A stretch of 59,771 nt of DNA from Catenulisporales bacterium. GTDB lineage: Bacteria; Actinomycetota; Actinomycetes; Streptomycetales; Catenulisporaceae. The stretch's first letter is position 1. The number at the start of each line of letters is the position of its first letter. The stretch covers positions 1 to 59,771 of the forward strand of contig JAEKKI010000129.1 in assembly GCA_019510485.1 (NCBI GenBank), written 5' to 3'. The position numbers and the translations under genes were made by a program. This document shows, piece by piece, positions 19,005-19,403 of this stretch. Under the pieces are notes generated by a model. The model did not search any database. It was not told the origin of the DNA and saw nothing but the letters and a program-made list of their open reading frames with translations.

Positions 19005-19056
19005 CGAGCGGCACGGGAACGGGGATCGGCCGAGATCAAAGCGGCTGCGGCACATA

Positions 19057-19136
19057 CGTGCTCTGCCATCTGAGCTACCGCCCCCACGGATGGAGGCGAG
19101 CCGGACTCGAACCGGCGACCGCGCGATTATGAGTCG
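19057..19136 (-). tRNA. Permuted elongator tRNA-Met(CAU): 3' half precedes 5' half
   Basis: Reading the minus strand, the 3' half comes first (19136 to 19092). It holds CGA of the anticodon stem, loop CTCATAA, stem TCGCG, variable CGGTC, T-arm GCCGG-TTCGAGT-CCGGC, acceptor strand TCGCCTC and discriminator C. A 7-nt linker follows (19091-19085). The 5' half comes last (19084 to 19057): acceptor GGGGCGG, TA, D-stem GCTC, loop AGATGGCA, GAGC, A, then CG of the anticodon stem. Joining 5' half to 3' half gives exactly 73 nt with every canonical stem paired. The acceptor has 7 bp including two G-U pairs, and the anticodon stem is CGCGA/TCGCG. CCA is not encoded at the discriminator. Permuted tRNA genes are established in some algae and archaea; here it could alternatively be a rearranged pseudogene. 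Confidence 0.7.
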
Positions 19137-19160
19137 AAGTATCCGCTGCCTACGCACCGG
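19136..19160 (-). repeat. 25-bp boundary element, copy B (abuts tRNA 3' half)
   Basis: On the minus strand this reads CCGGTGCGTAGGCAGC followed by GGATACTTC and runs directly into the tRNA 3' half. It matches copy A at 22 of 25 positions. Confidence 0.8.
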
Positions 19161-19328
19161 CCGATCCCCGAAATCCTTGTGCCCTCCCGAGATCTCGCCC
19201 CTGAAGGGACAGTTCGGAGACGGATTGCGTCCGCTCCCGGGCTTTCGCCTGGTGAGCACGAGCCGTAGCTCTCAGGCCCGGGCCGGGAGGCCGAAGCTTC
19301 CCAGCCTTGCCCTACCTTAGGGACGTTA

Positions 19329-19353
19329 GAAGTATCCGTTTCCTGCGCACCGG
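19329..19353 (-). repeat. 25-bp boundary element, copy A
   Basis: On the minus strand this reads CCGGTGCGCAGGAAAC followed by GGATACTTC. It is a direct repeat of copy B 193 bp upstream of it but is followed by unrelated sequence (TAACGTCCCTAAGG), not by a tRNA fragment. Confidence 0.8.
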
Positions 19354-19403
19354 GAGGTGCTGAGGAAAGCTTGCCGTACGGCGACGCGCCGCGTCGAATG
19401 GTT

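Follow-up and report, generated by a model that had tools for sequence, protein, structure and literature searches.

An RNA element encoded on the minus strand of a contig from a Catenulisporales bacterium (JAEKKI010000129.1; all 59,771 nt were analysed and are called the window here) is very probably, at a rough probability of 0.88, a YrlA-type Y RNA whose tRNA-like effector module is a complete, circularly permuted tRNA. A sequence-only reading had described this site as a permuted tRNA-Met gene, i.e. the 3′ half of a tRNA followed by a 7-nt linker and then the 5′ half, and the layout that it gave on the minus strand is correct letter for letter. Rejoining the halves between positions 28 and 29 does yield 73 nt with all stems paired, which ARAGORN reads as tRNA-Met(cat), and the acceptor stem can indeed be extended to 9 bp and capped by a UCCG loop. 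What was missed is that the halves are enclosed by a longer RNA, in which 11 perfect base pairs (19169–19159 with 19031–19021) make up an outer basal stem that is followed by a conserved inner stem. The parts of the element, in window positions, are as follows.

19021 to 19169, minus strand: the whole probable YrlA-type Y RNA with its permuted tRNA module, 149 nt (covariance-model match 19028–19168; Rfam match 19035–19149).
19159 to 19169, minus strand: outer basal stem, 5′ strand, GGGGATCGGCC, a perfect complement of 19021–19031.
19137 to 19158, minus strand: conserved Y-RNA stem, 5′ strand, GGTGCGTAGGCAGCGGATACTT, the presumed Ro60-binding part; its motif recurs in Y RNAs whether or not they carry a tRNA module.
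19092 to 19136, minus strand: tRNA 3′ half, positions 29 to 73, with anticodon hairpin, variable loop, T arm and acceptor 3′ strand.
19127 to 19133, minus strand: anticodon-like loop CTCATAA, with the anticodon CAT at 19129–19131; in relatives a loop of 7 nt is retained around other anticodons.
19085 to 19091, minus strand: linker ATCCGTG, 7 nt, closing the acceptor end.
19057 to 19084, minus strand: tRNA 5′ half, positions 1 to 28, with acceptor 5′ strand, D arm and the start of the anticodon stem.
19032 to 19056, minus strand: conserved Y-RNA stem, 3′ strand, ending in TTTGATCTC.
19021 to 19031, minus strand: outer basal stem, 3′ strand, GGCCGATCCCC; pairs of this stem covary in relatives.

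In such an RNA the two transcript ends would pair into the basal stem, the expected binder of the Ro60 ring (Rsr), and the remainder would fold as a tRNA L-shape built from the anticodon hairpin (29–41), the T arm, the loop-closed acceptor stem and the D arm, with positions 27–28 pairing back to 42–43 to finish the anticodon stem. On this view the permutation is topological: it follows from the point at which the Y stem joins the anticodon stem, so that splicing is not needed. The identification stands on sequence homology, on a covarying secondary structure together with the 15–48 pair, and on a location close to Ro60 genes, seen both in bacteria and in viral contigs; that the element is transcribed, binds Ro60 and is functional is a prediction.

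Passages of PMC8394870 describe YrlA as having D, T and acceptor arms, with a basal stem that binds Rsr and a tRNA-like domain that binds PNPase, and report that the tRNA-like domain of Y RNAs is modified by tRNA enzymes, while the Y RNA structure 6CU1, from Salmonella, superposes on tRNA with a circular permutation in the account of PMC11472068. The window element resembles YrlA (RF02553) and 6CU1, as PMC8394870 and PMC11472068 describe them, in its basal stem, formed where the 5′ and 3′ ends pair, and in carrying the T arm, a capped acceptor stem and the D arm in the same permuted order. YrlA is encoded with Ro60/Rsr genes, and so are many relatives of the window element, though not the window copy itself. 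It differs in that the Rfam model runs the anticodon-side stem directly into the Y stem, whereas here an anticodon hairpin of 3 bp and 7 nt is added and the break falls at 28/29. The intact 7-nt anticodon loop is new relative to YrlA as described in these passages, with D, T and acceptor arms only; a literature search found no anticodon-loop-bearing Y RNA in print, although the primary YrlA papers lay outside its scope and an earlier description is possible. Other bacterial Y RNAs, such as the Deinococcus Y RNA, and the RYPER complex (PMC4726728, PMC8394870) likewise involve a Ro60-linked RNA with a conserved stem and a presumed tethering role, but a different insert takes the place of the complete tRNA. 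Genomes with the full-tRNA elements also carry short hairpin Y RNAs built on this stem.

Homology to other elements of this kind was measured with a covariance model built from 12 relatives, the window copy being left out. The site scores 111.6 bits (E 3.2e-24) over the whole model, Y stem included, and the next-best match in the window, to the shared stem of a tandem neighbour, reaches 17.4 bits (E 0.026). With the same model the genome's own tRNA-Met scores 16.9 bits, and real tRNAs at 62 loci score at most 30.1 bits as single genes and 56.6 bits as identical genes in tandem. Such tandem genes (L146, L169 and L170, which are one place in G037) mimic a permuted tRNA and are a source of false positives for the model. 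They also give some substance to the idea that the window site is a tandem-tRNA remnant or rearranged pseudogene, consisting of the 3′ half of one gene and the 5′ half of the next after loss of the outer halves, yet the 56.6-bit imitation covers model positions 33–111 only, where the window match extends through the Y stem, and there are no other tRNA halves in the window. The fold moreover covaries over many genomes and full-length homologues adjoin Ro60 genes, which makes this origin highly improbable; a decayed pseudogene, the alternative named in the sequence-only reading, is not supported either, as relatives keep the fold, with covariation.

At its gathering cut-off Rfam gives no match in the window. 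Run in E-value mode, it ranks YrlA RF02553 first, at 19035–19149, with 35.3 bits (E 5.8e-6) against a gathering score of 69, and the YrlA score also falls below gathering in all 16 other sources tested (best 53.9 vs 69). The RF02553 model seemingly does not cover these lineages, and the element is therefore filed as a variant rather than a plain member. A group I intron or permuted intron–exon origin, suggested by the layout, found no intron match in the same mode, and tmRNA reached only 14.7 bits. ARAGORN called no tRNA gene in the unjoined window; applied to doubled windows it gave 2 to 9 hit windows per sequence in four Markov-simulated 60-kb sequences, a background that led us to rely on homology against chance.

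Folded as a single sequence, the window RNA is no more stable than its shuffles (z −0.94; 30 of 200 equal or surpass it), and neither the anticodon hairpin nor a correct T arm appears in the fold of minimum energy, so the cloverleaf rests on comparison and not on folding energy. The seed alignment for this comparison comprises 13 elements with an anticodon hairpin (L039 5191–5341, whose long acceptor was misaligned by MAFFT, was excluded). When cloverleaf and Y stem are imposed on these 13 sequences, 99.1% of 467 cells are paired and 18 of 36 pairs show double changes, a level of covariation that none of 500 shuffles reached, and pairing falls to 35–49% when the partners are slid.

Wider model searches returned 160 matches from 97 loci and 31 from 15 further loci, and the resulting alignment has 181 rows, 150 from the 160 matches and all 31 from the second group. 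T and D arms are present in 150 of the 181 rows; 91 of these have an anticodon hairpin in the strict sense (3 bp, a loop of 7 nt, U33) and the other 59 do not, a ratio that is uninformative on frequency because the loci were found with the same model. In the 91 strict elements the 15–48 pair is GC in 83 and AU in eight, with none broken, and the pair 28–42, which bridges the permutation, is GC in 66, AU in 18, CG in five, GU in one and unpaired in one. An alternative pairing with 42, by the two T before position 29, is possible in 85/91 and fails where 42 is C. All 91 have TTCGA in the T loop and GG in the D loop, and 90 have A14; A38 is found in every row of a 96-row list, while U33 holds for the 91 by definition. 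A set from viral contigs behaves similarly, with 15–48 as GC in 53, AU in 28 and AC in two of 83 strict rows and 42–28 paired in 82, and although the loop letters of this set were partly fixed by the search pattern, positions 42, 48, 15 and 28 were free.

The same 91 elements bear on the original interpretation, according to which the site is a functional permuted tRNA-Met gene whose transcript is cut and ligated at 28/29, loses its linker by end processing and becomes a decoding tRNA. In its favour, no stem or conserved tRNA position is missing, the real tRNAs closest to the window copy in the compared set are tRNA-Met, and genes for the RtcB ligase were found in 5/5 related genomes tested. 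The acceptor stems, however, keep at least six pairs and are closed by a loop of 2–17 nt in 91/91, with CCA inside the loop in 12. The flanks of the halves are a Y-RNA stem that is seen around tRNA-less inserts too, and these tRNA-less Y RNAs share the letters that are conserved where splicing would have to occur. RtcB was not found in the window's own genome, which is 77% complete, and the search for an intact tRNA-Met elsewhere in this genome, one of the checks proposed at the outset, turned up an ordinary tRNA-Met(CAT) with an elongator-like anticodon arm.

The anticodon itself is of 15 kinds among the 91 strict elements (CAU 20, GAU 18, CUC 12, GUC 11, CUU 8, GUU 7 and nine rarer), with U in 57 and C in 26 at position 36, and its identity is not conserved among orthologs; even close relatives differ. 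When the elements were compared with 81 real tRNAs from two genomes, one set being partial (five short Y RNAs without a tRNA body were dropped from the 96), the nearest tRNA shared the anticodon in 5/91 and the amino acid in 11/91; the window copy is among the five. Shuffling gave means of 1.8 and 4.9, and out of 20000 shuffles 468 and 44 attained the observed values, uncorrected for relatedness. This weak excess may be explicable by relatedness, but agreement above the shuffles means that anticodon identity is possibly not wholly irrelevant. A varying anticodon, 5/91 agreement with the nearest tRNA and an ordinary tRNA-Met in the genome together make a decoding role unlikely, and the cut-and-rejoined tRNA gene as a whole is to be given very little credence.

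The other system that the layout recalls is the permuted tRNA genes known from red algae, green algae and certain archaea (PMC3978253, PMC3218864). In the window element, by contrast, the flanks appear by eye to be the Y stem, with no sign of excision signals or of a free acceptor end, and the anticodon is not conserved. What is shared with those genes is a full cloverleaf with the 3′ half placed before the 5′ half.

In a DNA search of 60 related genomes the stem motif turned up at many places, flanking differing inserts, and the covariance-model search of related genomes that had been suggested as a check found many full-length homologues with the fold retained. Of the 391 genomes examined in the order, 104 contain a match of at least 131 bits, at 105 places among the matches listed (to E 2.8e-20), a count which takes in the window's own copy and the model members; the tally of 376/391 genomes at E 0.001 was set aside, since the model also picks up real tRNAs in tandem. 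Across the class, 37 of 394 genomes have a match at 1e-13, and 17 of the 37 belong to other orders. A pattern scan of genome contigs gave 109 stretches, and among the 80 listed 73 are titled Streptomyces, the other seven being four Hyphomonadaceae MAGs, Actinorhabdospora filicis, Niastella vici and one further bacterium. A looser pattern led to 61 viral contigs, and at least one strict element is present in 66 of the 68 sources formed by these and the seven genomes. Two L394 rows have no Y motif and look like ordinary tRNAs.

With the genome's own Rsr as tblastn query, an rsr gene was found at 30/30 top loci (L042–L071), and one is present at 22 of 40 loci fetched by coordinates (L072–L111), the other 18 being without it within about 4 kb, and at 20 of 23 later loci. 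TROVE is encoded by 47 of the 50 viral contigs tested (50 of 61), and the same search matched in 1/14 control genomes. In a second anticodon-bearing group (L074–L076, L079–L086, L088–L090, L109–L111) the body is mostly nearest to tRNA-Glu, and the 4 kb fetched for each locus contain no Ro60 gene.

The window is one of the three misses among the later loci, with no TROVE gene beside the element, and it shows neither a sigma-70 promoter nor a terminator pattern near the copy; its flanking genes were not found at the relatives' loci and there is, on that account, no synteny. These points, together with a tandem neighbour that is without its helix-69-like loop, would suit a true YrlA-type Y RNA that survives in this organism as an orphan copy, decaying or unexpressed. 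Against this, every tRNA stem and the perfect 11-bp outer stem are kept, and compared with the common form the window copy has compensatory changes at 30–40 and 42–28; we regard decay as improbable, if somewhat less so than the two readings above. The genome does carry a TROVE gene elsewhere, and a Y RNA 27 nt upstream of that Ro60 gene has the same stem motif as the window element.

Beside the element lies a second Y RNA, which has the following features.

19181 to 19360, minus strand: tandem Y RNA in which the same basal stem encloses another insert; the model finds the shared stem weakly.
19308 to 19328, minus strand: stretch resembling 23S rRNA helix 69–71, TAACGTCCCTAAGGTAGGGCA; the helix-69-like loop is deleted in the window copy.

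Kin of this neighbour occur in 6/14 family genomes, all in the window's genus (6/10). The relatives' insert, GTAACTATAACGTCCCTAAGGTAG, matches 23S helix 69–71 of a relative at 21 of 24 letters, a value reached by 0/300 whole-element shuffles and by 4 of 20000 shuffles of the 24-mer; the margin is thinner in a gapped 23S comparison (34.5 vs a best of 33.0 in 300 shuffles). The helix-69-like loop is altered in one relative, and Rfam gave no match up to E 5 on a relative's neighbour copy. Judged by this similarity, the insert (in the window and in L002, L005, L026, L029 and L030) may be a mimic of rRNA carried by an RNA that partners Ro60.

Other variants were met in the course of the searches. 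Ro60-adjacent Y RNAs at L020 1317 (−), L040 2758 (−) and L041 2218 (−) combine a long extra arm with a D arm reading TGGCGGA...GACGCG and resemble class II (leucine-type) tRNAs. Elements in L016, L018, L019, L025, L030 and others are YrlA-like and have no anticodon loop, the anticodon stem continuing into the Y stem, and they are often the second or third RNA of arrays whose first member has the loop. ARAGORN calls ordinary tRNAs (Lys, Asp, Ser) at the Y RNAs L010 1495–1569, L015 1524–1598, L342, L341 and L258, with the Y stem used as the 5′ half; tRNA-Lys(ctt) and tRNA-Asp(gtc) were called at two such Y RNAs. Finders of tRNA genes can thus misread Y RNAs of this type, and automated annotations may hold false tRNAs there.

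As to what the module does, it could act as a Ro60-tethered tRNA mimic, in which the intact anticodon loop would engage enzymes that read the anticodon arm, either luring anticodon nucleases, as decoy or bait, or being acted on by tRNA-modifying enzymes; this would come in addition to the tethering of PNPase for which Y RNAs are known. We hold this step to be a possibility that falls short of an even chance. An inhibitory action on anticodon nuclease has been proposed for YrlA without an anticodon loop (PMC7790460), but the nuclease is reported in that paper not to cut Salmonella YrlA, which counts against the decoy step. The variable anticodon fits a decoy better than decoding, and is also compatible with a loop kept only for its shape. 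A broader and more speculative suggestion is that the Ro60 RNPs of many actinomycetes and phages might display complete tRNA replicas, with their anticodon loops, as interchangeable baits for enzymes attacking or modifying the anticodon arm, the fast-changing anticodon reflecting an arms race with anticodon nucleases and phage Ro60 with its RNAs serving as counter-defence; this we consider rather unlikely as it stands.

Reading the site as a YrlA-type Y RNA replaces a claim that needs an unknown bacterial tRNA splicing route with a simpler one, and it would mean that tRNA mimicry by Ro60-linked Y RNAs can reach the whole molecule, anticodon loop included. With anticodon-nuclease inhibition proposed, in PMC7790460, for YrlA without the loop, and with natural loop-bearing versions of varied anticodon now at hand in bacteria and phages, the role of the tRNA-like part of Y RNAs becomes testable.
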